A DNA stretch of 57,741 bases from Spirochaetae bacterium HGW-Spirochaetae-2 (lineage in GTDB: Bacteria; Spirochaetota; Spirochaetia; Sphaerochaetales; Sphaerochaetaceae), in NCBI GenBank assembly GCA_002839355.1, contig PGXW01000034.1, forward strand, positions 1-57,741, written 5' to 3'. Below the pieces are notes generated by a model. That model was not told the DNA's origin. It was given only the letters and a program-made list of their open reading frames with translations, and did not search any database. The translations under genes were made by a program, and so were the position numbers. Of this stretch, positions 39,021-57,445 are shown piece after piece (within the stretch, counting starts at the first letter, position 1; the number at the start of each line of letters is the position of its first letter).

Positions 39021-39060
39021 TAAATTTTGCATACAAAAAACAAAGTTGGTACCAGGTACC
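39021..39060. repeat. R1 repeat, right half
   Basis: AAATTTTGCATACAAAA followed by TTGGTACCAGGTACC. The left arm is absent. The final C is the third base of the TAG stop codon of the minus-strand GGDEF/HD-GYP gene, the same arrangement as at the histidine kinase. Confidence 0.78.
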
Positions 39061-41912
39061 TACGAAGTAAACGCCTTGACGACCTCCGGATCGAAATGCG
39101 TCCCGGCACAGGCGCGAATCTCGTCCATGGCGACAGCGACATCCATTGGCGGCTTGTAGGAACGCTCGCTGGTCATGGCATCGAACGCATCGGCGACATG
39201 GATGATACGCGCCTGGATGGAAATCGCCTCGCCGGCGAGCCCGCGGGGATAGCCCAAGCCGTCCCAACGCTCGTGGTGCTCGAGGATGATGGTGGAGATA
39301 TCGATGAATTCACTCGCAGTCGAAAGGATGCGGTATCCCGTTTCGGGATGGCGGCGCACCTCCTCCCATTCCTCGGAGGTGAGGGCACCGGTCTTGTTGA
39401 GGATATGCTCGGGAATACCGATTTTACCGATATCGTGCATGAGACCGGCGATCCTGATCCGATTGACCTCCCGCGAGGAGAAGCCCATCTTGCGCGCGAT
39501 CGTCTCGCTGAGCTCGCTGACACGCTTGGAATGCTGCGACTCCCTGTCGCTCTTGGCGAATAGGGAATTGATCACCAACCCGATGGTCTTGTTCTTGGCA
39601 CTTGAACTCTCGTAGAGCTTGTGGCGGTACATCATGTCCTCGGCCTTCTTGAAGACGGACATGAAATCGTCGCCCATGGTCTTGCGCGTCTGGCAGCCGA
39701 AGGAGATGGTGAGTTGGAACGAGTCGATGCGCACATCCTTGGCACGCGACTCGATCTCCCCCATGATACGCTCGCTCTCGGCGGCATCGGTGTGGGGGAG
39801 TAGCAGGACGAACTCGTCGCCACCGTAGCGGGCCACGATATCGCCTGGACGGGCGATATGGCTGAGCAACCCGGCAGCCTGGCGCAACACCATGTCCCCG
39901 GCTTCGTGGCCGAAGGAATCGTTGACCAGCTTCAGCCCGTTGGTATCGGCGATGATGATGGAGACGGGAAGGTAGGATGCGTCGTCGAAGCGTTTGAGGG
40001 CATTCTCGAGATACCCGCGGTTGTACACACCGGTAAGGTAATCGTGGTTGCGTTGGAAGACCAACCGCTCGGAGGCCCGTTTGGTGTCGGTGATATCGCG
40101 GCAGACGACGACCGAACCGACAATCGCCCGGTGCTGGTCGCGAATCGGTGAGAAGCTGTAGCTGCCTATCCACGATTCTCCGGTATCCTTGCGCCGCAGG
40201 GTGAACTCGGCATGGGTGACACACTCGCCGGCGAGGGCACGCGAGACAGCCCATTGCTCGATGGGGGCGGCACTGCCGTCCGAAAGGTATATGTCGAAGA
40301 TGGCGGGGTATTCGGCCAAGGTTTTCTTGCAATCGGCCTCGTCGGCGAAGCGGTGGTAGGTGACGAATGCCTGGTTGAACATGATGAACCGCCCGTCCGT
40401 ATCCGAAATGAAGACGGCATCGGTCATGCTGTCTATGGCGGCATGGAGGGTGGCGTTGCTCGCCGCCAGGGATTCGCGCATCTTCTGTTGGTCCTCGAGT
40501 GCGAGCAGCACGATCCTGCGGGACTCCTCGGCCTCCAACAGCAACCTGCGGATCTCATCCTCGGCAGCCTTGCGCTCCGTGACATCGAAGAAGATCGCGA
40601 GGGTATCGCCTCCGCCAAAGTCGGTGCCGGTGATTTCCATGGTCCTGATATCGCCGTTCTTGCAGGTCACCTGGTAATCGGCGTGGGGCCCCAGGCGGGT
40701 AGCGGGACCACGTCCGACCTCCTCCTGCTCCCACCGGGTCCTGACGAGACGGCGGTATTCGGGATCGGGATAGGCCAGGTGGTACCACCTGTCGAGCGTG
40801 TGGATCTCCTTAAGGGTATAGCCGAATACCGACTGCCACCTGTGGTTGACCGCCACGATCTCTCGCTTGGCGTCAAAGATTCCCATGGGCAGCGGAGCGC
40901 ATTCGAACAGTTCGGTGAACCGTTTCTCGCTTTCGGCCGATGCCGTCTCCGCACGCTTGCGTCGTGCGATCTCCCGCTTCAATACCCATATCCAAGACGC
41001 CAACCCGAAGAGCACCACCACAAGCACACCGGCGGCCTGCCACAATCGGGAATAATCGACACCGTATTCATAGCGGATAGGCAACCAGCGCCGGTAGATC
41101 TCATCGCGTTCGGCTGAGCTGATCGTGGCCAGTGCCTTGTCGAGGATTCCCGCCAGGATCTCCCAATCCTTGCGCACGGCCATGGACTGCGCATTGACAT
41201 ACGGCGTGGTCCCGGCGATTTTCAAGGTGGTGGACAACTTGAGTTGGGTGAGGTAGTGGCCGACCACTAGCATGTTCTCGATATAGGCGAACACCTCGCC
41301 CTTCTGCAACCGGTCCAATCCCTGCCGCACATCCTGCACCGGTACGAGCTGGATATCCGGGTAATCGCGGGGAATCCAATCGAAGACCGCATAGTTCTCC
41401 ACCACAGCGACACGCTTGCCCGCCAATTCGTCCATATCGTTGATATAGGCGACATTCGTCCGGGTCACGATCACAATGGGGATATCCATATACGGCTTGG
41501 TGAACGCCCAGAAGAACTCCCGGTTGGGTGTGGCGGCCACAGACGGGGTCATATCGATCTCCCACGACTTCAAGCGCCGAAACGATTCCTGCCAACTCAA
41601 GCCGCTCACCGTGAGGAACGTGATACCCAACCGTTGCTCCAACAGCTGTAGGTAATCGGACGTCATTCCGGACGGCTCACCCTGGTCATCGACGAACTCG
41701 ATTGGTGGCCATCCGGGATCCTGGGCCACACTGACAAACGGATGCTTTTCGAGCCACGCGACCTCATCGGGTGTGAGCATGGTGCGGAAGCCGATGCTGT
41801 CGGTACCATCTTGCCCGAAAGCCATGGATACGGCAACCAGCAGGAACACACCGACGAGCACCACCATGCGTCTGTAATGAGCTGTAGTCCCTTGTGTTGC
41901 TAGCCTGTACAT
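39060..41912 (-). CDS. Periplasmic-sensor PAS-PAS-GGDEF-HD-GYP cyclic-di-GMP protein
   Basis: A 950-residue signalling protein. After a signal anchor (residues 16-33) comes a bacterial family-3 solute-binding sensor (about 50-275; FVSVAQDPGWPPIEFVDDQGEPSGM), a transmembrane helix (about 288-312), two PAS domains, a GGDEF domain with an intact ARYGGDEFVLLLP site, and an HD-GYP domain with GLMHDIGKIGIPEHIL and HHERWDGLGYPRGL. Both cyclase and phosphodiesterase signatures are complete, so it could make and degrade cyclic di-GMP depending on the ligand. The ATG at 41912 has GGGGAG upstream; 41969 is an alternative. Its stop codon lies on an R1 repeat. Confidence 0.95.
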   Translation of the reverse strand: MYRLATQGTTAHYRRMVVLVGVFLLVAVSMAFGQDGTDSIGFRTMLTPDEVAWLEKHPFVSVAQDPGWPPIEFVDDQGEPSGMTSDYLQLLEQRLGITFLTVSGLSWQESFRRLKSWEIDMTPSVAATPNREFFWAFTKPYMDIPIVIVTRTNVAYINDMDELAGKRVAVVENYAVFDWIPRDYPDIQLVPVQDVRQGLDRLQKGEVFAYIENMLVVGHYLTQLKLSTTLKIAGTTPYVNAQSMAVRKDWEILAGILDKALATISSAERDEIYRRWLPIRYEYGVDYSRLWQAAGVLVVVLFGLASWIWVLKREIARRKRAETASAESEKRFTELFECAPLPMGIFDAKREIVAVNHRWQSVFGYTLKEIHTLDRWYHLAYPDPEYRRLVRTRWEQEEVGRGPATRLGPHADYQVTCKNGDIRTMEITGTDFGGGDTLAIFFDVTERKAAEDEIRRLLLEAEESRRIVLLALEDQQKMRESLAASNATLHAAIDSMTDAVFISDTDGRFIMFNQAFVTYHRFADEADCKKTLAEYPAIFDIYLSDGSAAPIEQWAVSRALAGECVTHAEFTLRRKDTGESWIGSYSFSPIRDQHRAIVGSVVVCRDITDTKRASERLVFQRNHDYLTGVYNRGYLENALKRFDDASYLPVSIIIADTNGLKLVNDSFGHEAGDMVLRQAAGLLSHIARPGDIVARYGGDEFVLLLPHTDAAESERIMGEIESRAKDVRIDSFQLTISFGCQTRKTMGDDFMSVFKKAEDMMYRHKLYESSSAKNKTIGLVINSLFAKSDRESQHSKRVSELSETIARKMGFSSREVNRIRIAGLMHDIGKIGIPEHILNKTGALTSEEWEEVRRHPETGYRILSTASEFIDISTIILEHHERWDGLGYPRGLAGEAISIQARIIHVADAFDAMTSERSYKPPMDVAVAMDEIRACAGTHFDPEVVKAFTS

Positions 41913-42132
41913 GTGCTGCTCCCCATTGTATATCCCTGTGACCGCTTCCCCTCGCGAATAGCCATCCACGGTCTACCACGATGTAACACACTACCACACA
42001 TGGGAGTAAGTATCCAGTTTGTCCGCCGGAGGCGCCTGGGAGGAAGATGTTAGGTGTTGGGGAAAAGGGAGCTTGTGACGACGTGAAAAGTTTGAGTTCT
42101 TGGGTTCTTTTTCGATTGCTAGGAAAGTATAT

Positions 42133-42252
42133 GTGGGGAAAAGTCTTTCCCCACGCACCTGGTGGCGGGTGGTTTCACCACCGGACGCCGTTTCTCTTCT
42201 TGCTCCCATACTGTCCGCAAGGAAACGGCGGCCAATGCGGTGCTCCCCTTTC
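42133..42252. repeat. R2 structured repeat, copy A
   Basis: A roughly 120-bp element with three hairpins: GTGGGGAAA/TTTCCCCAC (42133-42154), GGTGG/CCACC near 42170-42182, and CGCCGTTTC/GAAACGGCG flanking TCTTCTTGCTCCC. It ends GGTGCTCCCCTTTC. Copies B (45120) and C (54166) share the second half almost base for base, but here the first hairpin has a different sequence that still pairs perfectly. Confidence 0.8.
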
Positions 42253-42279
42253 AAAGAAAGACTCCCTAAGTGTGAGAGC

Positions 42280-42430
42280 GCCAAACGGTGCCAGGGATGC
42301 AACGCTTGAAGGAGCTAGGCTCCTTCATGCCTGGCACCGCCTTTGGCTACTTGAAAGGGGAGTCTACGGGTGCGAGACCTCTCGGATTACGTCGAAGAGG
42401 GAGCCAGGTGCGGGGCACCTAGCACCCTAT
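42280..42430. repeat. R3 repeat, copy 1
   Basis: A long repeat nearly identical to 57446-57580. It begins with a large palindrome: GCCAAACGGTGCCAGG pairs with CCTGGCACCGCCTTTGGC around a GAAGGAGC/GCTCCTTC stem. The GGTGCCAGG/CCTGGCACC arms are the same as R1 ends. Its tail forms part of the left inverted repeat of the ATPase cassette. Confidence 0.8.
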
Positions 42431-42467
42431 TACCCGGCATCGTCTTCTTGACCACTCTTCAAGCGCG
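42372..42467. repeat. Left 96-bp inverted repeat of the ATPase/TOPRIM cassette
   Basis: Aligned by hand without gaps to the reverse complement of 44919-45014: about 80 of 96 bases agree, with most differences C/T or G/A. It begins GCGAGACCTCTCGG and ends TTGACCACTCTTCAAGCGCG. Confidence 0.78.
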
Positions 42468-42531
42468 TTGCATCCACCGATATCCTTCAGTATCGACAAT
42501 ATTGGTGCCAGACACCAGAAAGGAATTACAA

Positions 42532-43149
42532 TTATAGAATAGACTCGATCGCATTTTTGAACATCGAAAAGCTATGGGAGGTGTTATGGTGAATATCCAT
42601 ATGTTGGGCAATTTCCCGTGCGCATTCGGATTTTCGGAGGCCAGTCGAGAAATAGCCAGCTCGCTGTAAAATACGTTCCAAAGCCTCCCAAGTCCCTCCC
42701 TTGATCGCATCAGGATTGCGATATTTCGCTTGTTTGGGTATGGTGGCAGGTACTCTCGGATACGCTGTACGGACAGCATTCCAATCACCAAAGAACCATG
42801 CTTCAAGCTCCTCGATTACGATACGATTGATCACCTCGAATTTCCGACCTTCCGACGAACTTGATCTTGTGATCAACCCAGCCGAATGAGCGTGTATTTC
42901 CAATTGCTGTTTTAGTTCGATACAATTGTCATCATCCCGATCGACGAGTACAATAATCGACCAAGCCTCTGGTATCCAAGATCTGAATCCACGCAATCTG
43001 ATTGGGAGTTCTTTCAACAGTTCATCTTTACATTGAAAAGGGAAAACCTGGTAATTAATTTCTCCTAGCATCTGCGGAAGAATTTGCTCCAACGTAACTT
43101 GCATCGAATATTCTTCTACGAATACGAGTAGTTTTTCCAGCATCCTCAC
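42532..43149 (-). CDS. DUF4276-like TOPRIM protein (putative defence nuclease)
   Basis: A 205-residue protein with a TOPRIM-like layout: a first strand ending in acidic residues (LLVFVEEYS, Glu12/Glu13) and a second with DRDDDN (Asp70, 72, 73, 74). [17 protein letters not shown] is typical of the DUF4276 group, from memory. The GTG start overlaps the ATPase stop as GTGA; ATG 43143 is an alternative. TOPRIM proteins beside OLD-like ATPases usually act as nucleases of anti-phage systems (OLD, Gabija, PARIS). The role here is inferred from that pairing. Confidence 0.75.
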
Positions 43150-44384
43150 GCACCCTTGATAGTGGTTTTAGGCGCGCCTGAATTGACCATAGGATCTCCG
43201 AATCCAAAATGCCCTTCCATCCAGAGATGCCCGAGCGAGGACCCCGCCTGTATTAATTCTGGTATTCCTGTGATATCCGATGCTCTTACCGCCTGTGTGA
43301 AGCCATGTTCGTCCCGGTAGAGCACACGAACTTCCTCAGCCCTCATGGCATTGAGCAGAAATGGGGAATGGCTGGTAATGAGCAGTTGGGAATTTTCCGA
43401 TGCGGCCCGACACTCCTCGGCCAATTCGGGTAAAAGTCGCGGGTGGAGGAAATTTTCCGGCTCCTCGATACCAACAAATCTTGGTGGTTCAGGATCATAC
43501 AGCACCGTAAGGTACGCCAGCATTTTCATGGTCCCATCCGAAGCGAATTTGGAGAGTACCGGTTTCTCGAACGGTGCATCCTTGATTTGCAGCAACAGTC
43601 GACCATCCGGCATTGGCTCTGCATCCACGCGTTCCAAGTGTGGAATACGTTTGCGAAGAACAGTAAAAATCTTCTCCAATCGATGTGGGTGCATTTCCTT
43701 CAAGTATTGGATTACATTGGGCAGGTTGTCTCCACTCTTGCTCAATCGTTCCTGTGGTCCCGCCTCGGGCTGGTTCTTGGTTTGATCGATAGACAAATAC
43801 GAGACATACCAAGTAGTGATGAATTCACGCAACGCCGCAACCCGGGGATGGTCTGTCAGCTGCCCAAGCGTGTTGACTGCAATGAGATCTGGGGAACGCA
43901 GGTTTGACTCTGTACGAATATCATCTGCCTCTGGGACTTCTCCGCTAATCGCACGGCCGATTCCTCTCTTGAATTCGAGAAACCGAAAAGGTTGTCCCTT
44001 GCTTGCGCGACGCCACTGCAACCATTCCTCAACCACTTCAGGTCCTTTGATTCCCTCGTCGATAGCCAGATGGTAGGTGATTTTCGGAGTTTTTGGTGAT
44101 TCCCTATACGTGAGTTCAAATACTATCGGTCCGTCCTCTCCACGTGTCTTGAGTTCCTTACCTTTTCCCCGGCGATCCCAAGCATGCCTGAGTCCAAACT
44201 GGAAACACTCGGAGAGGAAGTTGAATACATCGAATATCGTTGACTTTCCGCTCCCGTTTGGACCTAAAAGAACAGTCAAAGGAGTCAGTTTGTCCAATGT
44301 GACGTCCTGTAAGGACCGGAAATTCTGGACTTTCAACGATTCGATTCTTGGAATGCCATTTTCTTTCGACGACATCGATTCCAT
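43146..44384 (-). CDS. OLD/RecF-like AAA ATPase
   Basis: A 412-residue SMC/ABC-type ATPase. It opens with [20 protein letters not shown] and Walker [10 protein letters not shown] (41-49). The C-terminal half has an SDGT signature-like segment (282-285), Walker B VGIEEPE (304-310), the D-loop region [13 protein letters not shown], and the switch histidine ITSHSP (336-341). There is no long coiled coil and no TOPRIM domain of its own; that is supplied by the next, translationally coupled gene. Pairs of this kind are candidate phage-sensing and killing systems. Confidence 0.9.
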
Positions 44385-44657
44385 TTTTTCATCCCTTGTA
44401 CATCATACTAATCGCAATATACAGTTTTTCCCGATGATCCGATTTGACTTCCACGGTGGAATATCTTGAAGCCGTAAGCCCGAACACCTTGAATATCATA
44501 CTCTAGCAGAAACAGTTAATTGCCACAAGAATAACCTTTTCCCATGAGAAGTTACGACTGCAAATCATTCGAATTGACCTCGTGGGTTAATTATGCAATT
44601 ATCAACACGATGGAATCGGCTTTGGCATAACGGTAAGGAGAGTACGAGGAGTATCAT
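44385..44657. other. Divergent promoter region of the cassette
   Basis: A 273-bp gap between the ATPase (minus) and the HigA-like gene (plus), rather AT-rich with no gene. It must hold both promoters; I see no clear operator. AAGGAG and GAGGAG lie before the HigA-like ATG. Confidence 0.5.
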
Positions 44658-44927
44658 ATGAGCTTATTGTCAAGCATTCCCACGGGGAAGATAATCAAAG
44701 ACTATCTTGACGAACATACCATAACACAGAAGGAATTGTCTGCAAGAACCGGTATCAGCGAAAAGCACCTGTCCCATCTGCTCAATGGAACGAGCCGTTT
44801 GACCGAGGATGTAGCATTGAAACTTGAAATGGTCTTAACTGGTATCCCCGCCTCATATTGGCTGAATTATGAAGCCAAATACCGTGAAGCAGTTGCAAGG
44901 GAGAGGGCAGGGATGAAGCGCGCTTAA
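44658..44927 (+). CDS. HigA-like XRE antitoxin/regulator without toxin partner
   Basis: An 89-residue helix-turn-helix protein of the HigA type: PTGKIIKDYLDEHTITQKELSARTGISEKHLSHLLNGTSRLTEDVALKLE and then IPASYWLNYEAKYREAV, the conserved HigA tail. HigA normally follows a HigB RNase gene, which is missing. It is divergent from the ATPase and may control the cassette. Its last codons (KRA-stop) lie within the right inverted repeat, so the repeat or its recombination has shaped its end. Confidence 0.85.
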   Translation: MSLLSSIPTGKIIKDYLDEHTITQKELSARTGISEKHLSHLLNGTSRLTEDVALKLEMVLTGIPASYWLNYEAKYREAVARERAGMKRA

Positions 44928-45014
44928 AGAGTGGTCAAGAAAACGATGTTGGGTGATGGGGTGCCAGGTTTCCTATACCTGGCTCCCTCTTCAACTTAAT
45001 CCGGGAGGTTTCGC
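44919..45014. repeat. Right 96-bp inverted repeat of the ATPase/TOPRIM cassette
   Basis: The inverted partner of 42372-42467. It runs from CGCGCTTAAAGAGTGGTCAA to CCGGGAGGTTTCGC and overlaps the end of the HigA-like gene. Beyond it, 45030-45105 continues with sequence matching, in reverse, the tail of R3 near 57561-57610. Confidence 0.78.
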
Positions 45015-45119
45015 ATCCTTAGGTTGTAACCAAATTCCTTCGAGAGGTTTACCTTTGCAGGACATTTCTAAATAAGAATGAAGGTTCTACCTGACTCTCT
45101 CTTTGAGGATTGTCCATGA

Positions 45120-45245
45120 GGGGAAAAGGGAAGGCTGCGCCAGATGAGCCTCCCATCCCCACGCACCTGGTGGCTTATTGCCGTTTCTCTTCTTGCTCCC
45201 ATACTGTCCGCAAGGAAACGGCGGCCAATGCGGTGCTCCCCTTTC
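45120..45245. repeat. R2 structured repeat, copy B
   Basis: Same orientation as copy A. The first hairpin has GGGG/CCCC and AGGCT/AGCCT stems (45120-45160). The middle GGTGG/CCACC hairpin is deleted as a unit, while the GCCGTTTC/GAAACGGC hairpin and the GGTGCTCCCCTTTC end are kept. Confidence 0.8.
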
Positions 45246-45259
45246 GGAACCTATTCCAA

Positions 45260-45301
45260 TAATCAATTTTGCATATAAAACGTAAGTCGGTACGAGGTAG
45301 C
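45260..45301. repeat. R1 repeat, degenerate right half
   Basis: AATCAATTTTGCATATAAAA followed by a decayed arm TCGGTACGAGGTA. It ends a few bases from the stop codon of the LacI gene at 45306, as other copies do. Confidence 0.55.
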
Positions 45302-45305
45302 AAAA

Positions 45306-46391
45306 TTACTTCAAGCGCATTACTGAGTCCCGAATCACCAACTCGGGTCTGATAGAAAGCGCTACTCCGTAGGTTTCTTCTTGGTTCACCATTGCATCAA
45401 CCATAAGTTGACAAGCCTTTTGCCCAAGATTGTATGAGGGCATGTGGACAGTGGTAAGAGCGGGAGTAATCATGGACGACAGTGGAATGTCATCCAGTCC
45501 AATCACGGAAATATCTTCAGGAACACGGATATTCATTTTCTTTAGTTCGTTTATGATTCCACAGGCGATAAGATCGTTCACTGCTAGAATTGCGGTGTAT
45601 TTTTTCTTTCGGTCCAGCAGAATTCTAACCAGATCTTGTCCCACCTCGAATTCGTACAATCCATCTTCAAACTCATATTCATACGGTGCTATGATGATAT
45701 CCTCGTCGGTGAATTCGTGATGATACTCATCCATTGCCAGCCGACAGCCTTTTATAGTGCTGCTACGTGATTGTTTACTCAAGGGTGTGGTAATTATTGC
45801 GATATTTTCATGTCCCATAGAAATAAGATGTTTCATCGCTACCCGGCCTGATTCAATCATATCCGTTTTTGCCACAATAAATGTGTTTTGATCCTTAAAG
45901 TTTGATTCAAATACACATACTCTACCACCGTTTGAAATAAATTGGGTCAGTGATGTCGCAGAATCATCAACGGAGGCAATCATGAGTCCCATGATTCTTT
46001 TCTGCAAAAGTTGTTTGATCAGGTTGCGTTCCATAAGGGCATTTCGCTGTGAACTGAAGGTGGAAATCGTGTATCCCAAAGTGGCTGCTTTTTGTGATAT
46101 GCCATGGATCAGTTGGATATAGAAAGGATTCTGGTACGATGGGATGACTATGCCGATAGTTGGATTGAATTTCGTTTTCAACATTTTACCTAAAAGGTTT
46201 GGCGTGTATCCGACCGTCTCTACAGCGAGTTGTATCTTTTTTCTGGTCGCCATACTCACTGGATAGTTACCACCACTTAAAGCTCTGGATACGGTCGCAA
46301 CAGAGGTTCCCGCAACTCGTGCCACGTCTACAATCGTTGATTTTTCTCTCTTTACGTTTGATTCATTCTCTTCCACTGTCTCACTCTCCAT
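45306..46391 (-). CDS. LacI-family transcriptional regulator
   Basis: A 361-residue repressor. The helix-turn-helix is at about 18-40 (TIVDVARVAGTSVATVSRALSG) and the sugar-sensing domain follows (IGIVIPSYQNPFYIQLIHGIS; ILAVNDLIACGIINELKKMN; VIGLDDIPLSSMITPALTTV). It is divergent from the TRAP/NagBA operon starting at 46737; operator-like palindromes in the 345-bp gap make that operon its likely target. Confidence 0.95.
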   Translation of the reverse strand: MESETVEENESNVKREKSTIVDVARVAGTSVATVSRALSGGNYPVSMATRKKIQLAVETVGYTPNLLGKMLKTKFNPTIGIVIPSYQNPFYIQLIHGISQKAATLGYTISTFSSQRNALMERNLIKQLLQKRIMGLMIASVDDSATSLTQFISNGGRVCVFESNFKDQNTFIVAKTDMIESGRVAMKHLISMGHENIAIITTPLSKQSRSSTIKGCRLAMDEYHHEFTDEDIIIAPYEYEFEDGLYEFEVGQDLVRILLDRKKKYTAILAVNDLIACGIINELKKMNIRVPEDISVIGLDDIPLSSMITPALTTVHMPSYNLGQKACQLMVDAMVNQEETYGVALSIRPELVIRDSVMRLK

Positions 46392-46549
46392 ATATCGTAC
46401 GATAATATTCTAGAACAACATGTTTGGTATATCAATTCATTATAGAAAAAAATAGAAAGAAATATAGAAAATTAATAGAAAATATAATTTACGAACCTAA
46501 TCAATCTTGAATTTTCTTAAACCCAAATAAATTGATTATAACATTAAAA

Positions 46550-46563
46550 AAACATTAATGTTT
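46550..46563. promoter_or_regulatory. Palindrome AAACATTAATGTTT, candidate operator
   Basis: A perfect 14-bp palindrome within the AT-rich gap between the LacI gene and the TRAP operon. It may be an auxiliary site for the LacI regulator or another factor. Confidence 0.5.
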
Positions 46564-46623
46564 ATAAGTAAAGATTTAAATGGAATTAAAATTTCTATTG
46601 ATTATTAATAAGAAAAAAATAAC

Positions 46624-46650
46624 TTGACAGTAAACGTTTGCAATGATAAT
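46624..46650 (+). promoter_or_regulatory. Promoter with LacI-type operator for the TRAP/NagBA operon
   Basis: TTGACA (46624-46629) is a consensus -35, and GATAAT (46645-46650) is a plausible -10 with a short 15-base spacer. The spacer contains the LacI-type half-symmetric AAACGTTT (46632-46639), so repressor binding would block polymerase. The start of DctP lies about 85 bp downstream, with AAGGGAGG before it. Confidence 0.7.
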
Positions 46651-46736
46651 CCTAATACAGGGTGTGTTGAAACTAGCATACCCTCATCGCATCAATCTGA
46701 TCCGCGTATCGTGGAAAAGAAAAAGGGAGGTTTTTT

Positions 46737-47753
46737 ATGAAAAAACTGATGGCGATTTTTCTCGTGATTTTAGTGGCGACAAGTATTTTCGCCGCGGCTC
46801 AGGCAGAAAAAGCTTCTTCAGTCGGCAAAATAGTCGAATTGAAGTGGTACCAACCTGAACCTGATGGGCATCCATGGACTGATGTTGGGTACATGATTGC
46901 CGAGGAGATTGAAAAGAATTCAAATGGAACATTGAAAGTGACGATGTATCCAAGTGGAGTCTTGGGAACACAAGCTGAAGCCATCGATATGTTACGTACA
47001 GGTTCATTGGCCCTTCTGACTTCAGGTCCCAGTATCCTTGCATCGTTTTATGACCCCGTCCAGATAATGTCCCTTCCGTACGCATTCGATAATGCGGCTC
47101 AGGGGTATGCCTTTTTCGAATCACCAGCCGGCCAGAAGATATTTACTGATATTCAAGCAAAGAGTGGAGTGCGTACCCTTGATGTCTGGTATTTCGGAGA
47201 CCGTAATCTGACTATCAATAAAGTCAATGTGAGAACACCCGCTGATCTTACAGGGAAAGCCGTCCGTTGTATGGATACACCGGTTGCAAAAACTGTTGTC
47301 GGTTCACTCGGTGCCAGCCCTGTGCCTATCAATTTCAGTGAGTTGTACATGGCTCTTCAGACAGGTGTTGTTGTTGGTCAGGAGAACCCTGTCCCTACAA
47401 TCATTGCGCAGAAGTTTTACGAAGTTCAAGATACTTTGGTGTTGACCAGGCACTCGGTCCATTTGGGTACCGTCCATGCTTCAGAGATGATATGGAAGAG
47501 TCTCACAGACGATCAGCGTAGTGTGATTGCAACAGTGTTGGCAAAATATCGTCCAGTCATTGAAGAAAGAATCAACAAAAACACCAAGGAAGGACTCGAC
47601 TTCCTTCGAAGCAAAGGTATGACGATTCTTGAACCTGATTTGACTCCTTTCCGAGCGAACGCAAAGAAAATCATAGCCTCCACCTTCGGTAACGATAAAG
47701 AGTGGATGTCAGTGATTAACGGTCTTGAGACTTTTAAAGCTTCTTACAAGTAG
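46737..47753 (+). CDS. TRAP transporter substrate-binding protein (DctP family)
   Basis: A 338-residue binding protein with signal peptide MKKLMAIFLVILVATSIFAAA. LKVTMYPSGVLGTQAEAIDML and the ligand-arginine region GKAVRCMDTPVAKTVVGSLGASPVPI are family marks. The conserved Arg suggests an acidic substrate such as a sugar acid. First gene of a seven-gene operon ending with nagA. Confidence 0.93.
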   Translation: MKKLMAIFLVILVATSIFAAAQAEKASSVGKIVELKWYQPEPDGHPWTDVGYMIAEEIEKNSNGTLKVTMYPSGVLGTQAEAIDMLRTGSLALLTSGPSILASFYDPVQIMSLPYAFDNAAQGYAFFESPAGQKIFTDIQAKSGVRTLDVWYFGDRNLTINKVNVRTPADLTGKAVRCMDTPVAKTVVGSLGASPVPINFSELYMALQTGVVVGQENPVPTIIAQKFYEVQDTLVLTRHSVHLGTVHASEMIWKSLTDDQRSVIATVLAKYRPVIEERINKNTKEGLDFLRSKGMTILEPDLTPFRANAKKIIASTFGNDKEWMSVINGLETFKASYK

Positions 47754-47764
47754 ACAAGAAGACT

Positions 47765-47808
47765 CCGACAAGTGGCCGTCGCAATAAATGCCCGGTCACT
47801 TGTTTCGG
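47765..47808 (+). promoter_or_regulatory. Intercistronic hairpin between dctP and dctQ
   Basis: CCGACAAGTGGCCG (from 47765) pairs with CCGGTCACTTGTTTCGG (to 47808) with a mismatch and small bulge. Same position as in the other four transport operons. Confidence 0.68.
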
Positions 47809-47839
47809 ATTTAAACTCAAGATCATCAAGGAGTCTTTT

Positions 47840-48349
47840 GTGAAGAAACTATTGGCGATTCTCAACTCTTTCGAAGATTACGTAGCCCCCGCGTTTTTCG
47901 CTATCATGTGTGTTGCCGTGGCTGCTCAGATTTTCTTCAGGATGGTGTTGAAGAGACCGCTTCTCTATACTGAAGAAATCGCAAGATTCTCATATGTTTG
48001 GTGCGTATATATTTGTATAGCAATGGGAGAAAAATACCAGGATCATTTCGCAGTCGATGTCTTCGTAAAATTTCTCAAAGGAAGACCCAATTTGTTGCTA
48101 CATGTAATAGAAAAGGCTCTCGGTAGCTACATGTTCGCCGTCATGTTTTTCTGGTCAGTAAAATTCTTCTCGTTTCAAAAGATTTTACAATCCCCTGCCT
48201 TCGGAATTTCCATGAGTGTCGTCGCCGCCTCAATGTGTGTTGGTTTTTTTCTGGCTTTCATCCGACGAGGGTTCCATCTTGTTGTGGCTGTCAAACTTCT
48301 CTTTAAGAAAACAGTGTCCGAACAATCTGTCGACACGGTAAAGGAGTGA
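47840..48349 (+). CDS. TRAP transporter small permease (DctQ family)
   Basis: A 169-residue, four-helix membrane protein with the conserved RPLLYTEEIARFSYVWCVYICIAMGEKYQDHFAVD segment. The GTG start follows AAGGAG by 7 bases. It joins DctM in the membrane complex. The C-terminal tail is charged and short. Confidence 0.92.
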   Translation: MKKLLAILNSFEDYVAPAFFAIMCVAVAAQIFFRMVLKRPLLYTEEIARFSYVWCVYICIAMGEKYQDHFAVDVFVKFLKGRPNLLLHVIEKALGSYMFAVMFFWSVKFFSFQKILQSPAFGISMSVVAASMCVGFFLAFIRRGFHLVVAVKLLFKKTVSEQSVDTVKE

Positions 48350-48355
48350 GCGTAT

Positions 48356-49642
48356 ATGGAACCTGTGACTCTGTTCTTCCTGGCATTTGTTGTTCTTTTG
48401 GTTATACGCACCCCTTTGTACCTATGTCTGCTCGGTTCATCCTTGGTGTATTTCAATTTCAACACCGACCTTTCACTAATGACAGGTATGAGCAAAATGA
48501 TGAACGCGCCCAACTCTTTCACTTTGTTGGCTGTACCCTTTTTCATCCTTGCTGCCCAGATTATGAACAACGGGGGTGTGACCGATAGGATTTTCGGATT
48601 CTCGAAACAACTTTTCGGTCATTTTAGGGGAGGGTTAGCCTATGTAAACGTCTTTTCCAGCCTCATTTTCAGTGGTATTAGTGGATCGGCCCTCGCCGAC
48701 GTCGGAGGCTTGGGAGTCATCGAGATGAAGGCAATGCGTGATGAGAATTACGATGACGATATAATCCTTGGTGTAACTGGAGCCAGCAGTACTGTCGGTC
48801 CGATCATACCACCGAGCATTCCCTTCGTCATTTACGCCTCTATGGCGGGAGTTTCTGTCGGAGGCATGTTCTTGGCGGGCATAGGTCCTGGGATTCTTCT
48901 AAGTATTGTACTGTGCATTTATATTTATTTCATTGTGAAAAAACGGAATTATCCCAAGCATAAGAGAGCTACCCTCAAAGAGATAGTTACCTCATTCTGG
49001 GGAGCCTTACCCGCGTTGTTGTTTCCTGTGATTATGCTCGGCGGAATCTGGGGAGGAATGTTCACCCCGACCGAGGCTGCCCTTATCTCAATCACGTATG
49101 GACTCATCGTATCCTGCCTGGTGTACCGAGACATGAAGATCTCGAGCTTACCGAAGTTACTACTCATCTCGGTACGGCAAGTCGGTCCATCCATTGCGGT
49201 CGTTGTTACTGCGTCCTTGTTCGCATGGATTTTGACCTATGAGAAAGTAGACAAGGTTATTGTGCAGTTCATCCTCTCATTCACCTCGAACAGGATCATC
49301 ATTCTCATGATAATTAATATTTTCCTTCTTTTTCTCGGTATGTTCGTCGAAGTCGTGGCGGCAATCATGATAACATTGCCGATTCTCACCCCGCTTATGT
49401 TGATTGCGGGTATCCACCCCATCCACATGGGAATCATCCTCACCTTGAATATGATGATAGGATTGTTGACACCTCCCGTAGGATTTTCACTCTATATGCT
49501 CTCATCGACGTCTGGGCACCCCTTGAACAAAGTCGTCAGAATGGTAATGCCTTGGTGGATACCACTGTTTTTCTCATTGTTACTTGTCACTTATGTAGAG
49601 CCGGTCACCATGTGGCTGCCGAGATTGTTGGGATTCGCATGA
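48356..49642 (+). CDS. TRAP transporter large permease (DctM family)
   Basis: A 428-residue polytopic permease. FSGISGSALADVGGLGVIEM, GPIIPPSIPFVIYASMAG and IGLLTPPVGFSLYMLSS are the conserved transport loops. It starts six bases after the DctQ stop. Paralogue of the DctM at 28257. Confidence 0.94.
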   Translation: MEPVTLFFLAFVVLLVIRTPLYLCLLGSSLVYFNFNTDLSLMTGMSKMMNAPNSFTLLAVPFFILAAQIMNNGGVTDRIFGFSKQLFGHFRGGLAYVNVFSSLIFSGISGSALADVGGLGVIEMKAMRDENYDDDIILGVTGASSTVGPIIPPSIPFVIYASMAGVSVGGMFLAGIGPGILLSIVLCIYIYFIVKKRNYPKHKRATLKEIVTSFWGALPALLFPVIMLGGIWGGMFTPTEAALISITYGLIVSCLVYRDMKISSLPKLLLISVRQVGPSIAVVVTASLFAWILTYEKVDKVIVQFILSFTSNRIIILMIINIFLLFLGMFVEVVAAIMITLPILTPLMLIAGIHPIHMGIILTLNMMIGLLTPPVGFSLYMLSSTSGHPLNKVVRMVMPWWIPLFFSLLLVTYVEPVTMWLPRLLGFA

Positions 49643-49691
49643 GGTCTTAAATTATTAATTAATTTGTTGGAAAAGTACAAAAGGAGAGAAT

Positions 49692-50771
49692 ATGAAAATG
49701 AAAGTTGGTGTAGTTGGTGCCGGTTTATACGGCAGTGTCTTGATCAATGCCTATTATGGTGCCCACAGACGGTCAGAGATCGATTTCGTTGCAGTCGCTG
49801 ATGTGAAACAGGATGCTTTGGATAAAGTCGCTAAAACTTACGGAATACGGGGATATCTGGACTATAATGAAATGTTCGATAAGGAACAACTCGATGCAGT
49901 CGCAATTGTCACCCCAGATTTTCTGCACGAGGCTTGTGTTCTCGATGCGGCTAATAAGGGCATACATATTCTCGTTCAGAAACCACTATCAACCGATATT
50001 GAAGCCGCCAAGAGGATGATCGCTTGTGCAAAAGCCAACAAAGTGATGCTTTACGTTGATTTTCACAAACGTTTCGATCCGGGACACATGCAGTTGAGAA
50101 GGGCGATAAAAGAAGGGAAACTGGGACAAATCGAATATGGCTATGTTTGTATGGAAGACAAGATTCTTGTACCAACCGAGTGGTTCAAGACCTGGGCGCA
50201 TAATAGTTCTCCCGCTTGGTTCCTTGGAATCCATTTCTTCGACCTCATCTACTGGTTGCTAGGAGAAAAACCCCACAAGGTTTACGCAACTGGACATAAG
50301 AAGAAGCTGGTCTCCTTGGGAATAGATAGCTACGACTCTATCCAAGCAAAATTTGAGTTCCCTAGTGGCGCAACCATTTCTGTCGATTCTTCATGGATAA
50401 TTCCCAATAGTTTCTGTTCAGTCGTCAATCAACAGATTCGAATCGTTGGAACCGACGGTATGCAGGAGGTCGATAGTCAGGATAGAGGAGTGGTGGCCGC
50501 CTACGAGAGCAGTGGTTCTAGCTTGGTGATAAATCCCTATGGACAGCTGCAGGTGGACGATCCCGTTGCTGGTTCGATACCAGTTGGATATACAGTTGAA
50601 TCGATGCTCTACTTCCTCCGCCTAGTCAATAAAATGATAACTGACGGTATTGGTTTGAAGGACCTGAAAGCTGAATATCCAACCGGAGACGAAGCTTTGG
50701 TGTCTACAATAATGTGTCAGAAAGCTCACGAAAGTGTGGAATATGGAAGAATTATGGATCTTTCCTACTGA
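49692..50771 (+). CDS. Gfo/Idh/MocA-family oxidoreductase
   Basis: A 359-residue NAD(P)-dependent dehydrogenase. The nucleotide motif is VGVVGAGLYGSV at 4-15, and the catalytic Lys lies in HILVQKPLSTDIEAA near 95-100 (QKP replaces the usual EKP). DFHKRFDPGH and WFLGIHFFDLIYWLLGEKP fit the substrate domain with its His. AAAAGGAGAG precedes the ATG. In this operon it probably oxidises a hydroxyl of the imported amino-sugar derivative. Confidence 0.92.
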   Translation: MKMKVGVVGAGLYGSVLINAYYGAHRRSEIDFVAVADVKQDALDKVAKTYGIRGYLDYNEMFDKEQLDAVAIVTPDFLHEACVLDAANKGIHILVQKPLSTDIEAAKRMIACAKANKVMLYVDFHKRFDPGHMQLRRAIKEGKLGQIEYGYVCMEDKILVPTEWFKTWAHNSSPAWFLGIHFFDLIYWLLGEKPHKVYATGHKKKLVSLGIDSYDSIQAKFEFPSGATISVDSSWIIPNSFCSVVNQQIRIVGTDGMQEVDSQDRGVVAAYESSGSSLVINPYGQLQVDDPVAGSIPVGYTVESMLYFLRLVNKMITDGIGLKDLKAEYPTGDEALVSTIMCQKAHESVEYGRIMDLSY

Positions 50772-50862
50772 TTATCAGTTTGATAATGTGATGCCCCAAC
50801 AACTGTAGAGGGGGAGAGTATAATCCCCTTCGATTGTAATTTGTGTAGTAAAAGGATGAGTC

Positions 50863-52134
50863 ATGGGAGAGAGTCTGTACGAAGCGATAGGACAAGTGAA
50901 AATTCCTCGGATGGTAAGAATTCGTCAGCATTTCGAGGATAATCGGATTGAAGATCCAGTTTCGGTTGTAGAAGAGCAAATGGAACGGTCGGAAATTTTG
51001 GAAACAATCAAGCCAGGGATGCGAATCGCCATTACCGCTAGCAGCCGTCCTATACACAATCTCGATATCATACTCAGAACGATTGTCCGTATTCTGCGAC
51101 GTCATGGTGCCGAACCCTTTGTAATTCCAGCCATGGGAAGCCATGGTGGTGGAACTGCGGAGGGGCAGAAGCACATCCTAAATTCATATGGTATAACGGA
51201 GGAACGTGTTGGCTGTCCAATTCTTTCTTCTATGGAGACTGTTTCTGTCGGAACTTCGCCGGAGGGTCACCCTGTTCATATCGATGCATTGGCGAATGCT
51301 GCACAGGGAATTATTGTTGTCGGCAAGATTAGGCCTCATTCGGGGTTTTCAGGTCCCTATGAGAGCGGACTAATGAAAATGATGACTATCGGATTGGGCA
51401 AGCAACATGGCGCAGCAGTCTGCCATAACGCGGGAGCTAAATATCTCGCCAAATACATTCCCATGTTTGCGAATGTCATTTTAGAGAATTGTAATATCCT
51501 CTTTGGAGTTGGTATCATTGAGAATGCCTATCATAAAACATATCTAATTGAATGCATCCCAGCCAAAGACATACCCTCTCGAGAGCCTGCTTTATTGCAA
51601 AAGGCTTATACTTTATTACCCAGACTTATGTTCAAGGATGTAGCTGTTCTGGTTCTCGATGAGATAGGCAAGAATATCAGCGGTGACGGGATGGATCCCT
51701 ATATAACGACACGTTTCGGCACTCCTTATGTAACCACCGAGGAAAGTATTCAAAAGGTGGCCATTCTTGATATATCGGCTGAGAGCCATGGAGGTATGCT
51801 CGGTGCCGGTTGGGCTGATGTCTGTACGAGGCGAATGTTCGACAAGTGTGCATTGGAAGAGAGTTATGTGAACGCAATCACTGCGACGATTTTTGACGGA
51901 GTGCGAATTCCCATGATTCTTAAAAACGACTATTACGCCATAGCTGCTTGCATTCGTGGGAGTGTGGATATCGATAGGGAGAATATCCGTCTGGTTCGGA
52001 TGCACAACACTCTCGAAGCCTACGATATCGAAATATCGGAAAGCATGATTGAAGATGCATGCAGGAATCCTGACATAGAGATTCTTGGAGACCTTGAAGA
52101 ATTGGAGTTCGATGAAAACGGGAATTTGTGGTAA
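50863..52134 (+). CDS. LarA-like (DUF2088) racemase/epimerase homologue
   Basis: A 423-residue protein resembling the nickel-dependent lactate racemase LarA family. ITASSRPIHN matches the substrate Arg region, AMGSHGGGTAEGQ the catalytic His loop, and GKIRPHSGFSGPYESGLMKMM the His/Lys region that carries or faces the nickel-pincer cofactor in LarA, as remembered. LarA homologues epimerise alpha-hydroxy acids, including sugar acids. No larB/C/E cofactor genes are nearby. Its neighbours suggest epimerisation of an acidic amino-sugar intermediate, a guess. Confidence 0.78.
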   Translation: MGESLYEAIGQVKIPRMVRIRQHFEDNRIEDPVSVVEEQMERSEILETIKPGMRIAITASSRPIHNLDIILRTIVRILRRHGAEPFVIPAMGSHGGGTAEGQKHILNSYGITEERVGCPILSSMETVSVGTSPEGHPVHIDALANAAQGIIVVGKIRPHSGFSGPYESGLMKMMTIGLGKQHGAAVCHNAGAKYLAKYIPMFANVILENCNILFGVGIIENAYHKTYLIECIPAKDIPSREPALLQKAYTLLPRLMFKDVAVLVLDEIGKNISGDGMDPYITTRFGTPYVTTEESIQKVAILDISAESHGGMLGAGWADVCTRRMFDKCALEESYVNAITATIFDGVRIPMILKNDYYAIAACIRGSVDIDRENIRLVRMHNTLEAYDIEISESMIEDACRNPDIEILGDLEELEFDENGNLW

Positions 52135-52164
52135 TCAAAATTTTAATATAAAGATAGGTTTAAC

Positions 52165-52896
52165 ATGGAAGTTATTACGAAAGAGAATGAAGTTGAAATG
52201 GGGAAATTTGCTGCTACAGTTGGTGCCGAGGCCATCAGGTCTGCAATTTTGAAAAATGGTGAGGCTCGGATTATCCTTGCGACCGGAGCTTCTCAATTCG
52301 AGATGCTGCGTCATCTGGTCACGATGGATGTTGCATGGGAGAAAGTTTCAATGTTCCATTTGGATGAATATTGTAATCTCGCGATGACGCACGCAGCCAG
52401 TTTTCGGAAATATCTGAAAGAACGATTTGTCGACATAGTCCATCCAAAAGAAGTTCACTATGTCGATGGAGAGATTGATATCGAGAAGCACATCGAGCAA
52501 CTTACCCGCTCAATGAGAATAAAACCAATCGATGTCGCATTCATTGGAATTGGTGAGAACAGCCATATCGCTTTCAATGATCCCCCGGCCGATTTTCTTA
52601 TCGATGATGCTTATATTGTGGTGGATCTGGATGAAGATTGTAAACAGCAGCAAGTTTCGGAAGGATGGTTCCACTCGTTGGCGGAGGTTCCTGAGAAAGC
52701 CATTTCGATGACAGTCCATCAGATTCTTCAAGCAAATAAGATTATCTGTTCTGTTCCTGGCATCCGCAAGGCAAAAGCAATGAAAAATACTCTGGAGAGT
52801 GATGAAATTACTCCAATGGTTCCGGCGACGATCCTTCGAAGTCATCCTGACTGTGTCATCGTGTTGGATAGGGATGCCGCTTCGTTACTTGCATAA
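52165..52896 (+). CDS. NagB-like glucosamine-6-phosphate deaminase, variant active site
   Basis: A 243-residue sugar-phosphate isomerase-fold protein. MFHLDEYCNL gives Asp67 (equivalent of E. coli Asp72) and FIGIGENSHIAFNDPP gives His134. At the position of E. coli Asp141 there is Asn132, and Glu148 is replaced by Asp139. Similar GENGH...NDPP proteins exist as a NagB-like subfamily, so it may still act on glucosamine-6-phosphate or on a related amino-sugar phosphate. It precedes nagA by 26 bp. Confidence 0.82.
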   Translation: MEVITKENEVEMGKFAATVGAEAIRSAILKNGEARIILATGASQFEMLRHLVTMDVAWEKVSMFHLDEYCNLAMTHAASFRKYLKERFVDIVHPKEVHYVDGEIDIEKHIEQLTRSMRIKPIDVAFIGIGENSHIAFNDPPADFLIDDAYIVVDLDEDCKQQQVSEGWFHSLAEVPEKAISMTVHQILQANKIICSVPGIRKAKAMKNTLESDEITPMVPATILRSHPDCVIVLDRDAASLLA

Positions 52897-52922
52897 TACT
52901 GTTACCCGTCTGGAGGTTGGAT

Positions 52923-54110
52923 ATGAAACGAACCGCAATAGTTGGTGGAAAACTCGTGACTCCTTACAGAACCGTTTCCGACATGGGTTTGGTCATGGAA
53001 GGTGGGAAAATTGTCTCATTCTTCAAAGGTGAGGAGATTCCCGACAATTGCCAAATATTGGATGCCAAGGGTAATTATGTTAGTCCCGGGTTCATCGATA
53101 TGCATGTTCATGGAGGAGGGGGTCACGACTTCATGGACGGTACTGAGAGAGCAATAATTGAAGCAGCGAAAACCCATATGATGCACGGCACTACTTCAAT
53201 CGTCCCAACGACGTTGACTTCAACCGACGAAGACCTTTTCAATTTCCTTGAAGTCTATCGCAGTGCTAAGAAAATGATGACCGATGGGCCAAGCCTTTTG
53301 GGTGTACATCTGGAAGGTCCGTACTTCGCGTTGTCCCAACGGGGAGCTCAGGACCCAAGATATTTACGTGTGCCCGTAAAGAAACACTATATGGAGATTC
53401 TCAATCATTCCAACGATATCATACGGATGTCGGTTGCTCCCGAATTGGATGAGGAGTATGCATTGGTGGCAGAACTAAAAAGTCGTCATATTTTGGCGGC
53501 TGTAGGACACTCCGACGCGGTGTACCAACAGGTTGCTGAAGCATTCGAGCGAGGATATACCCATATCACCCACCTCTATTCGGGAATGTCCTCTCTCCAC
53601 CGAAAGAACGCTTTCAGATATCTGGGTGTGGTGGAGAGCGCCTTTCTGATTGATGATATGACTGTTGAAATCATAGCGGATGGGAAACACTTGCCGATTG
53701 AATTGCTCAAGTTGATTCTGAAATGCAAACCTATGAATAAAATTTCATTGATCACCGATTCGTCACGGGGAGCAGGTATGGCGGATGGCCAACACGTGTT
53801 GTTGGGCAGTCTCAAAAACGGGCAGGATTCAATCATCGATGGTGGTGTCGCGTTCACCCCAGACCGCTTGTCTTTTGCAAGCAGCGTTTGTACCACCGAT
53901 AGATGTGTACGTACGATGTACAAATCAGTCGGGGTGCGTATCGAGGAAGCTGTCAGTATGATGACAATCAATCCAGCCAGGGTTATGGGAATCGATGCTA
54001 CAAAAGGATCTCTCGACTTAAGAAAAGACGCTGACATCTGTATTTTCAATGATAATATCGAACTATCACACGTAATTGTCAACGGAGAAATCCGCTGGGC
54101 TGCAAGCTGA
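52923..54110 (+). CDS. nagA: N-acetylglucosamine-6-phosphate deacetylase
   Basis: A 395-residue amidohydrolase-fold enzyme that removes acetate from GlcNAc-6-phosphate. Metal and substrate residues: MHVHGGGGHDF (HxH, near 60), GVHLEGPYF (metal Glu near 127), VGHSDA, THLYSGMSSLHR (metal His near 219) and the catalytic Asp in LITDSSRGAG near 278. TGGAGG lies six bases before ATG 52923; the TTG at 52917 is rejected. With the NagB-like gene it gives the end of an amino-sugar pathway. Confidence 0.92.
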   Translation: MKRTAIVGGKLVTPYRTVSDMGLVMEGGKIVSFFKGEEIPDNCQILDAKGNYVSPGFIDMHVHGGGGHDFMDGTERAIIEAAKTHMMHGTTSIVPTTLTSTDEDLFNFLEVYRSAKKMMTDGPSLLGVHLEGPYFALSQRGAQDPRYLRVPVKKHYMEILNHSNDIIRMSVAPELDEEYALVAELKSRHILAAVGHSDAVYQQVAEAFERGYTHITHLYSGMSSLHRKNAFRYLGVVESAFLIDDMTVEIIADGKHLPIELLKLILKCKPMNKISLITDSSRGAGMADGQHVLLGSLKNGQDSIIDGGVAFTPDRLSFASSVCTTDRCVRTMYKSVGVRIEEAVSMMTINPARVMGIDATKGSLDLRKDADICIFNDNIELSHVIVNGEIRWAAS

Positions 54111-54165
54111 CAAATGTGACTTCGGGTTCATGATGGTTTTTTCTTTACAAAGAATATCATTTGAT

Positions 54166-54308
54166 GTGGGGGGAAGAGAAGGCTGCGCCAGATGAGCCTC
54201 CCATCCCCACACACCTGGTGGCGGGTGGTTTCACCACCGGACGCCGTTTCTCTTCTTGCTCCCATACTGTCCGCAAGGAAACGGCGGCCAATGCGGTGCT
54301 CCCCTTTC
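54166..54308. repeat. R2 structured repeat, copy C
   Basis: The most complete R2: GTGGGG/CCCCAC with inner AGGCT/AGCCT (54166-54210), GGTGG/CCACC (54224-54238), CGCCGTTTC/GAAACGGCG (54242-54286) and the GGTGCTCCCCTTTC end. It marks the boundary between the GC-balanced nag operon and the AT-rich insert. Confidence 0.82.
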
Positions 54309-54635
54309 GGGTTTTTTATCTGATAGTCGAAGTTCACACGAAGAACTCGTATAGCAGTTGTAGTATCAATAATTGAACAAGAAGCTATTAATAGACTAAA
54401 CACATGTTAAATGTTTCTATAAAATGTATGGTTTTTAAAAGATTTTTTGTATTTTTTTTCTGGACTTTTATTTCTGGCAGATCATAGAATTAATCATACT
54501 CAAGGTATTCGACATATTTTGTAGTTTTTCATTTCTGGTTCATAATTATATTTCTAATGTCAAATAGAATTGGTGCTGTGCTGGGTATATGCAATCATGT
54601 TTTTGTTTTAATCAATTCCAATTGTAGGAGAGAAT
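54309..54635. other. AT-rich region before the two-gene insert
   Basis: About 330 bp with no gene and strong A/T bias, including a poly-T tract near 54440-54465. It probably holds the promoter of the gene at 54636 (TGTAGGAGAGAAT before the ATG). The base composition changes at the R2 end. Confidence 0.55.
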
Positions 54636-55211
54636 ATGTCAAAGTATACTAAATTGAGTGCTGCAGAAGGGATAAAGAAAAATAATGGATTAAGAGAAGC
54701 GTTAATATTACTAGGGAAGAATCAATATCATAATAAAAAGAGACTGCAAAATGAAAACAAGAAGAGCTTGGTAGAAAATTCTTACTATAAGATTGGAAGA
54801 AAACTCATTGCAAAGAAGTTTGGCAGATTCAATTTAAATGCTATCAATTACATGGTATATCCTAATAAGAAAAAGAGATCATTAGAATCTTTTTATTACT
54901 GGTTCTACCATGAAAAGAAATATCATTCATTTTTTAATCAGATAATTATTAATCTCAAGAAGATAGATGGACAATATCAGGTGGAATCACAATCCCTAAT
55001 CAATAAATTAATAGATGATTACAATTGTTCCAATTGTGTTGTATATTCCGATATTTTACTACATGAGCCTAAAAAAACACTAGACTTACATGTTAATACC
55101 TACAGTGAGAGAGAACATAATCCGGTAATGCAAATATTAGCTCAAATTGCAGTAGTTGATCAAAAACATGATGTTGAGGGAAATAGCTATGAAACGATTT
55201 ACACCAATTGA
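54636..55211 (+). CDS. Unknown basic protein of AT-rich insert (gene 1)
   Basis: A 191-residue, Lys/Asn/Tyr-rich soluble protein. I recognise no family. Visible traits are a basic N-terminal half (RKLIAKKFGRF, NKKKRSLESFYYWFYHEKKYH) and an ending with possible acidic site DLHVNTYSERE. AGGAGAG precedes the ATG. It overlaps the next gene's start by 23 bases, so the two are one transcript. Codon use is far more AT-rich than its neighbours, a sign of transfer. Confidence 0.6.
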   Translation: MSKYTKLSAAEGIKKNNGLREALILLGKNQYHNKKRLQNENKKSLVENSYYKIGRKLIAKKFGRFNLNAINYMVYPNKKKRSLESFYYWFYHEKKYHSFFNQIIINLKKIDGQYQVESQSLINKLIDDYNCSNCVVYSDILLHEPKKTLDLHVNTYSEREHNPVMQILAQIAVVDQKHDVEGNSYETIYTN

Positions 55212-55926
55212 GTGGCAATCATTTTCTCAAAAGAAGAATATTGAACAGATACTGAAGAGATTGGATTCAGTTAATAGTTTTGGCGTATCCATCATATGGG
55301 AAATGGTTCTTATAGTATTTAGCGTAGGTCTTACAAATGTTTTCCAGGAGATTTTGTCACCGAGAGAATTAAAGAATGGTCAGATAATAATTTATAGTTT
55401 AGCATTTCTTCCAATAGTAATATTTTTTATATGTTTTGCTTGGTCCTTCTATAAAAGGAAAAGACTACCAATGCAACTATCACCGAGAAACTTCATTGAC
55501 CAGTTTGATAATGAAATTTGCTATAATGCATTCATGGCTGAATCGTTTTATTCTATGTTACTTGAAACTAATCCTAGTAAAGAGAATTCCCCAATCGCAC
55601 ATGCCTATGAAGAAACGAAACAATTTTACTATATAGAGGCCAGTTATTATTTTATGAAAGCCACACAAGCATTGTGCCCGTTCTATTTTATGAAAGAGAA
55701 AGTTGTCTCAACAGACCCAGAAATGATTATTGGCAAAAAGTTAATTGCTTATGCTCGATATGAGAATATTCTTTCATTACTAAAAAAAATATTCTTATAC
55801 CTTGAAGCTAATGAGAACATTCTTGAAGGATTGCCTGAGCAGAATTCAGTCATCGCCACAAACAAGAAGATGGTAAGTAACCTTAAAGCAATACAAGAGA
55901 AAAGCTCCTGTGATTTCTTAGAATAA
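55189..55926 (+). CDS. Two-helix membrane protein of AT-rich insert (gene 2)
   Basis: A 245-residue protein with two predicted membrane helices close together (SIIWEMVLIVFSVGLTNVF near 34-52 and IIIYSLAFLPIVIFFICFAW near 66-85) and a long helical cytoplasmic tail. I recognise no family. The ATG at 55189 has GAGGGA upstream, unlike the earlier in-frame start. Soluble protein plus small membrane protein in a transferred AT-rich pair resembles sensor-plus-pore layouts of conflict systems, but nothing specific supports that function. Confidence 0.6.
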   Translation: MKRFTPIEWQSFSQKKNIEQILKRLDSVNSFGVSIIWEMVLIVFSVGLTNVFQEILSPRELKNGQIIIYSLAFLPIVIFFICFAWSFYKRKRLPMQLSPRNFIDQFDNEICYNAFMAESFYSMLLETNPSKENSPIAHAYEETKQFYYIEASYYFMKATQALCPFYFMKEKVVSTDPEMIIGKKLIAYARYENILSLLKKIFLYLEANENILEGLPEQNSVIATNKKMVSNLKAIQEKSSCDFLE

Positions 55927-56134
55927 TCATGGAAATATCTTAAAGCTTTTCTGTAAATAGATAGTTGCTTTTACAATATTACGTTACCCTTTTCGAGAAA
56001 CTACTTCAATAGTTAACTCAAAGCACCACTACGATAAATTATTCACATTTTCAAATACAATTATCGTAATGATATCCCAACGGCATATGAAGCCAAATGT
56101 AGTCAAATGTCACCATTTCACACCAAAATGACAG

Positions 56135-57444: not shown

Positions 57445-57445
57445 C

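Follow-up and report, generated by a model that had tools for sequence, protein, structure and literature searches.

A stand-alone copy of the candidate defence pair HEC-01 beside a probable antitoxin fragment in a spirochaete genome

The best overall explanation of the locus described here, which we hold at a probability of roughly 85%, is that it carries a stand-alone copy of HEC-01, a candidate defence pair for which a mechanism can be proposed, with the remnant of a HigA antitoxin gene beside it and dispersed repeats bracketing both. The locus lies in a stretch of 57,741 nucleotides (the window) of Spirochaetae bacterium HGW-Spirochaetae-2. What is new is one more copy of HEC-01, standing alone; the system itself has already been catalogued as a candidate. 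That the ATPase gene and its DUF4276 partner form a defence-type ATPase-TOPRIM pair is well supported, and the evidence is documented below: the identity of the genes, their predicted folds and catalytic residues, their pairing, and the restriction or BREX neighbourhoods. The features of the locus, in window coordinates, are as follows.

42148-42252, plus strand: outer dispersed repeat module, left copy (a 99% identical copy lies at 54204-54308)
about 42279-42365, plus strand: module with a strong hairpin, immediately preceding the left inverted-repeat arm (folding z -6.0)
42364-42475, plus strand: inverted repeat, left arm, a copy of a dispersed intergenic repeat
42532-43149, minus strand: HEC-01B, DUF4276 protein of putative TOPRIM type, 205 aa with a GTG start or 203 aa with an ATG start
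43146-44384, minus strand: HEC-01A, OLD/ABC-type ATPase, 412 aa, intact ORF
44658-44927, plus strand: HTH-only HigA-like ORF, 89 aa
44911-45022, minus strand: inverted repeat, right arm, of the same dispersed family as the left arm
45106-45245, plus strand: outer dispersed repeat module, right copy, in direct orientation relative to the left copy

Identity and predicted folds of the pair

The three open reading frames of the preliminary description, an ATPase, an overlapping DUF4276 gene and a divergent HigA-like HTH gene, were found again at the same places. The GTG start of the DUF4276 gene overlaps the stop codon of the ATPase gene (GTGA); an alternative ATG start at 43143, two codons downstream, agrees with the start in the relatives and gives the 203-aa product. 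The pair had been thought to match no system that could be named, a view overturned by PADLOC, in which the ATPase matches HEC-01A (PDLC04182, E 5.4e-162, residues 12-397 of 412) and the adjacent gene of the same operon matches HEC-01B (PDLC04202, E 6.9e-86). The matches span almost the whole of each protein, and gene order and coupling are the same as in HEC-01. In Pfam the two are AAA_21 (E 6.7e-29) and DUF4276 (E 1.5e-30), respectively. HEC-01 stands for Hma-embedded candidate 1, with HEC-01A and HEC-01B as its components in PADLOC-DB, and it has been named as present in a strain of Desulfovibrio piger (PMC12724379). Several HECs were antiviral in assays (PMC12988326); our literature search found no anti-phage test of HEC-01 itself, the tests mentioned being of some other HECs (PMC12988326).

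The structure-based searches that had been proposed for both proteins place the DUF4276 protein among the TOPRIM domains of OLD and PARIS and the ATPase near PtuA and OLD. The AlphaFold2 model of the ATPase (pLDDT 87.7) resembles Septu/retron PtuA and the OLD nuclease, a likeness that also reflects the general ABC/SMC head common to those structures. Its [14 protein letters not shown] and SHS motifs are intact, and the catalytic motifs show little or no variation among the relatives compared; across 49 sequences the Walker A residues G41, N43-G44, G46-K47 and T49, together with E308-N311 and H339, do not vary at all. A sequence search of the PDB with the DUF4276 protein returned no match. Its predicted model (pLDDT 92.4), on the other hand, retrieved OLD TOPRIM structures (6nk8/6njw) at ranks 1 and 2 of a Foldseek search, the first at E 2.5e-4, and aligned with the OLD TOPRIM domain 6nk8 at a VIA-align Z of 11.0 (169 residues aligned, rmsd 4.2) and with chain 8ux9_A of the PARIS complex at a Z of 10.1, both values exceeding those of the unrelated structures ranked below them. 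Neither D70 nor E116 varies among 68 sequences, and each of E12, E13 and D72 is conserved in at least 90% of them, so that a TOPRIM fold match coincides with the conserved E12/E13 pair and a DxD motif (D70, D72). The predicted structure thus supports the DUF4276 protein as a TOPRIM protein of the OLD/PARIS type, with a putative catalytic function suggested by the fold and the conserved residues.

Comparison with other ATPase-TOPRIM systems shows both likenesses and differences. As in PARIS (AriA-AriB), where the two functions are split between genes (PMC10568477, PMC9122126), the ATPase and the putative TOPRIM protein are encoded by separate, coupled genes; the partner here, however, matches DUF4276 only, whereas the TOPRIM protein AriB belongs to DUF4435, and the ATPase fits HEC-01A far better than AriA (E 5.4e-162 against E 3e-30). 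With OLD and Gabija (GajA) the pair shares an OLD-type ATPase and the TOPRIM fold, but the two are unfused, and the three genes between the repeats include no UvrD-like GajB helicase. A mad3-like ATPase adjoining a mad4-like protein recalls MADS, a candidate rejected on NCBIfam equivalog scores far below the cut-offs (121.7 against 420 bits for MAD3 and 13.8 against 160 bits for MAD4). AbiL (AbiLi-AbiLii) and RloA-RloB likewise combine an ATPase with a small partner gene, and AbiLi matches the window ATPase at E 6e-30; this candidate was rejected as the DUF4276 partner has no AbiLii or RloB match at E 0.1, and a real AbiL-like pair occurs in a relative, G004.

Relatives and their neighbourhoods

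A scan of GTDB genomes yielded 80 related loci whose ATPases are 61-86% identical to that of the window and which span Pseudomonadota, Desulfobacterota, Chlorobi, Spirochaetota, Chloroflexota, Acidobacteriota, Archaea and others. In 76 of the 80 a DUF4276 match lies directly downstream of the ATPase gene, mostly with an overlap of 1-4 bp, a count that takes in a few partial matches, at contig ends or with frame breaks. In two relatives (L040 and L042) BREX pglZ directly follows the gene of the HEC-01A-like ATPase and no DUF4276 match is present; this may be a one-gene variant, so the ATPase may sometimes act without its DUF4276 partner. In the ATPase tree the window copy groups with sequences from Chlorobiaceae, Desulfobacterota, a spirochaete, a Fibrobacter and an Endozoicomonas, a case of transfer across phyla. 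The plasmid or phage carriers are only distant relatives (below 41% identity), except for one copy at 66% on a Meiothermus megaplasmid.

Many of these relatives sit inside BREX or restriction operons, unlike the window copy, which stands alone with an unrelated HTH ORF adjoining it. BREX PglZ was found within the fetched flank of 15 of the 80 loci, the commonest gene order being pglX, ATPase, DUF4276, pglZ, and the clade beside the window copy's group in the ATPase tree contains such BREX-embedded copies. At the other loci, for which 113 neighbours were compared, type I methyltransferases and specificity subunits were the most frequent defence families with six members each, as raw counts taken without a control set, and in one spirochaete relative (L048) the gene immediately upstream of the pair encodes a type IIG restriction enzyme. 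TOPRIM-linked OLD-ABC modules have been described as back-up effectors inside BREX (PMC12839542), and the pglX/pglZ, type I and type IIG neighbourhoods of HEC-01 fit these published modules (PMC12839542). A search of the host genome for PglZ found none, so the window copy stands alone and, being outside the usual restriction context, could be inactive.

These distributions also bear on whether the pair might be a DNA-repair or housekeeping ATPase of the RecF/Rad50 kind with an accessory protein. The ATPase does have weak matches to RecF, SMC and Rad50, but the pair is absent from 59 of the 61 genomes searched, including both genomes of the same genus and all other genomes of the same family in that set, and identities of 80% and more are seen across phyla. 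Taken together with the restriction and BREX neighbourhoods, this patchiness and cross-phylum identity fit a defence function rather than that of a core gene, and a housekeeping role is extremely improbable. The earlier suggestion of a defence-type OLD ATPase coupled to a TOPRIM protein is well supported, and the pair is patchily distributed and absent from related genomes.

The adjoining HTH frame and the repeats

The HTH gene and the ATPase gene diverge across a shared intergenic stretch of 273 bp (44385-44657), and the preliminary description had counted the former as part of the gene set. The relatives do not support this, as an HTH homolog was sought beside each of the 80 and found beside none, and the ORF has the look of a truncated HigA. 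Its nearest homolog is the N-terminus of a 313-aa HigA-like M78-peptidase protein encoded after a HigB-like toxin gene in genome G024, to residues 4-85 of which it is 79% identical. Similarity to G024 at the DNA level covers 44673-44902 and ends 9 bp short of the right repeat arm (44911), which begins inside the final five codons of the ORF and supplies those codons and the stop. The ORF scores 41.5 bits against the HigA model, below the cut-off of 47.7. The description of a HigA-like regulator without a toxin was accurate: the ORF has neither a HigB gene beside it nor a peptidase domain, on which grounds a complete HigBA system (HigA with M78 peptidase) was rejected, and a search for a HigB relic upstream gave chance matches only. 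As judged from sequence, the ORF is probably the N-terminal relic of a HigA-M78 antitoxin, truncated at the repeat, and it is unlikely to be a component of the HEC-01 set.

In another genome (G004, L118:6585-8957) an AbiLi/AbiLii (RloB) pair is immediately preceded by a related 88-aa HigA-like HTH ORF. One might therefore suppose that ATPase-TOPRIM pairs of this family have adopted the short HTH protein as a functional regulator or antitoxin which silences the pair until infection, and the window ORF is indeed open and divergent from the ATPase gene. Yet the homolog is missing beside all HEC-01 relatives, the closest homologs are long proteins that join HigA to a peptidase and are accompanied by a HigB gene, the homology ends at the repeat, and no operator-like inverted repeats were found between the HTH and ATPase genes, which leaves this an unlikely reading built on a small sample of two cases. 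HTH proteins of this kind occur in five of 393 genomes of the phylum, and their rarity makes the chance of adjacency to a pair hard to judge. It is very doubtful that short HigA-derived HTH proteins lacking toxin and peptidase domain have been adopted repeatedly in this family to regulate different ATPase-TOPRIM pairs, HEC-01 here and an AbiL-like pair in G004. A scan for sigma-70-like promoters gave a result too near chance to use.

The inverted repeats first described as 96 bp long and about 83% identical are real, although their length needs correction: the arms align without gaps over 112 bp at 82% identity, with a local score of 72, where 200 shuffles gave at most 14. They belong to more extended groups of repeat modules, which include the strong hairpin at 42280-42365; outside them lies a direct repeat of 66 bp (42187-42252 and 45180-45245) that is 100% identical. 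The inverted-repeat unit has at least four further copies, partial or nearly whole, on contig C34 (82% over 103 bp), at window position 57530 and on contigs C40 and C17, as counted by sequence searches in a draft genome of 86 contigs. Besides its copy at 54204-54308, the outer module has less similar copies on contigs C4, C9, C44 and C17, and the hairpin module recurs together with the start of the arm (42279-42409) at 57445-57575. As this last case illustrates, this genome's intergenic repeats are mosaics in which several hairpin modules combine in varied ways. No Rfam match was found in the window, and the repeats are thus not a curated RNA family; nor was the repeat arm found in 40 related genomes. 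Given this absence and the copies elsewhere in the genome, they are species-level intergenic repeats rather than ends made for a cassette; that is, they are dispersed intergenic repeats which happen to bracket the insertion, and they may have aided the arrival or retention of the pair through homologous recombination.

The repeats had previously been taken as the borders of a mobile element. In such a reading, the three genes and the inverted repeats would form a transposable cassette, the repeats serving as MITE-like ends for a transposase acting in trans and the HTH protein as its regulator. The repeats do bracket exactly these three genes, which are absent from a genome of the same genus, and the HTH gene is divergent from the ATPase gene. 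Against this, the interval between the arms holds no ORF for a transposase or recombinase, no target-site duplication was found at their outer edges, and the repeats are not exclusive to the element, recurring elsewhere singly and in mosaics with other modules. The right arm, moreover, is not outside the HTH gene but overlaps its end, and none of the 80 relatives carries that gene. A transposable cassette is accordingly most doubtful, and the reading of the locus as a mobile cassette bounded by repeats should be dropped.

A clean empty site was likewise not found. The same-genus genome (G001) lacks the pair and has both the left neighbour gene (79%) and the LacI-TRAP block (90%, DNA), but the two have exchanged order, and short repeats occur at several ends of the rearranged blocks. 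These flanks show gain or loss within a rearranged region and offer no clean insertion site. Over window positions 39024-57448, compared with contig C16 of that genome, it is the SBP-PAS-GGDEF-HD gene and the LacI-TRAP block that have changed places. Two AT-rich ORFs (191 and 256 aa) at 54636-55926, with no Pfam or PADLOC match, sit between the outer-repeat copy at 54204-54308 and a ROK gene, and are absent from the matching region of G001.

Proposed function and meaning

By analogy with PARIS and OLD (PMC9122126, PMC10568477), the most likely function of the HEC-01 pair would be that of a sensor ATPase which releases a TOPRIM nuclease on infection. In this model HEC-01A probably forms oligomers, binds ATP and keeps hold of HEC-01B or controls it; a putative phage-derived trigger would then be sensed and the TOPRIM protein released from the putative complex, whereupon it would cut nucleic acid, its putative substrate being DNA as in OLD and Gabija or tRNA as in PARIS. 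The presumed anti-phage effect would follow from this cutting, which would stop phage growth, probably at the expense of the cell.

The locus is, then, largely ordinary: a member of HEC-01, a probable antitoxin fragment and repeats scattered through the genome. It adds a stand-alone copy to HEC-01, a predicted structure which supports DUF4276 as a TOPRIM protein of the OLD/PARIS type, and relatives that sit between pglX and pglZ. With close relatives embedded in BREX, HEC-01 is a sensible candidate for testing in a back-up effector role alongside BREX and restriction.
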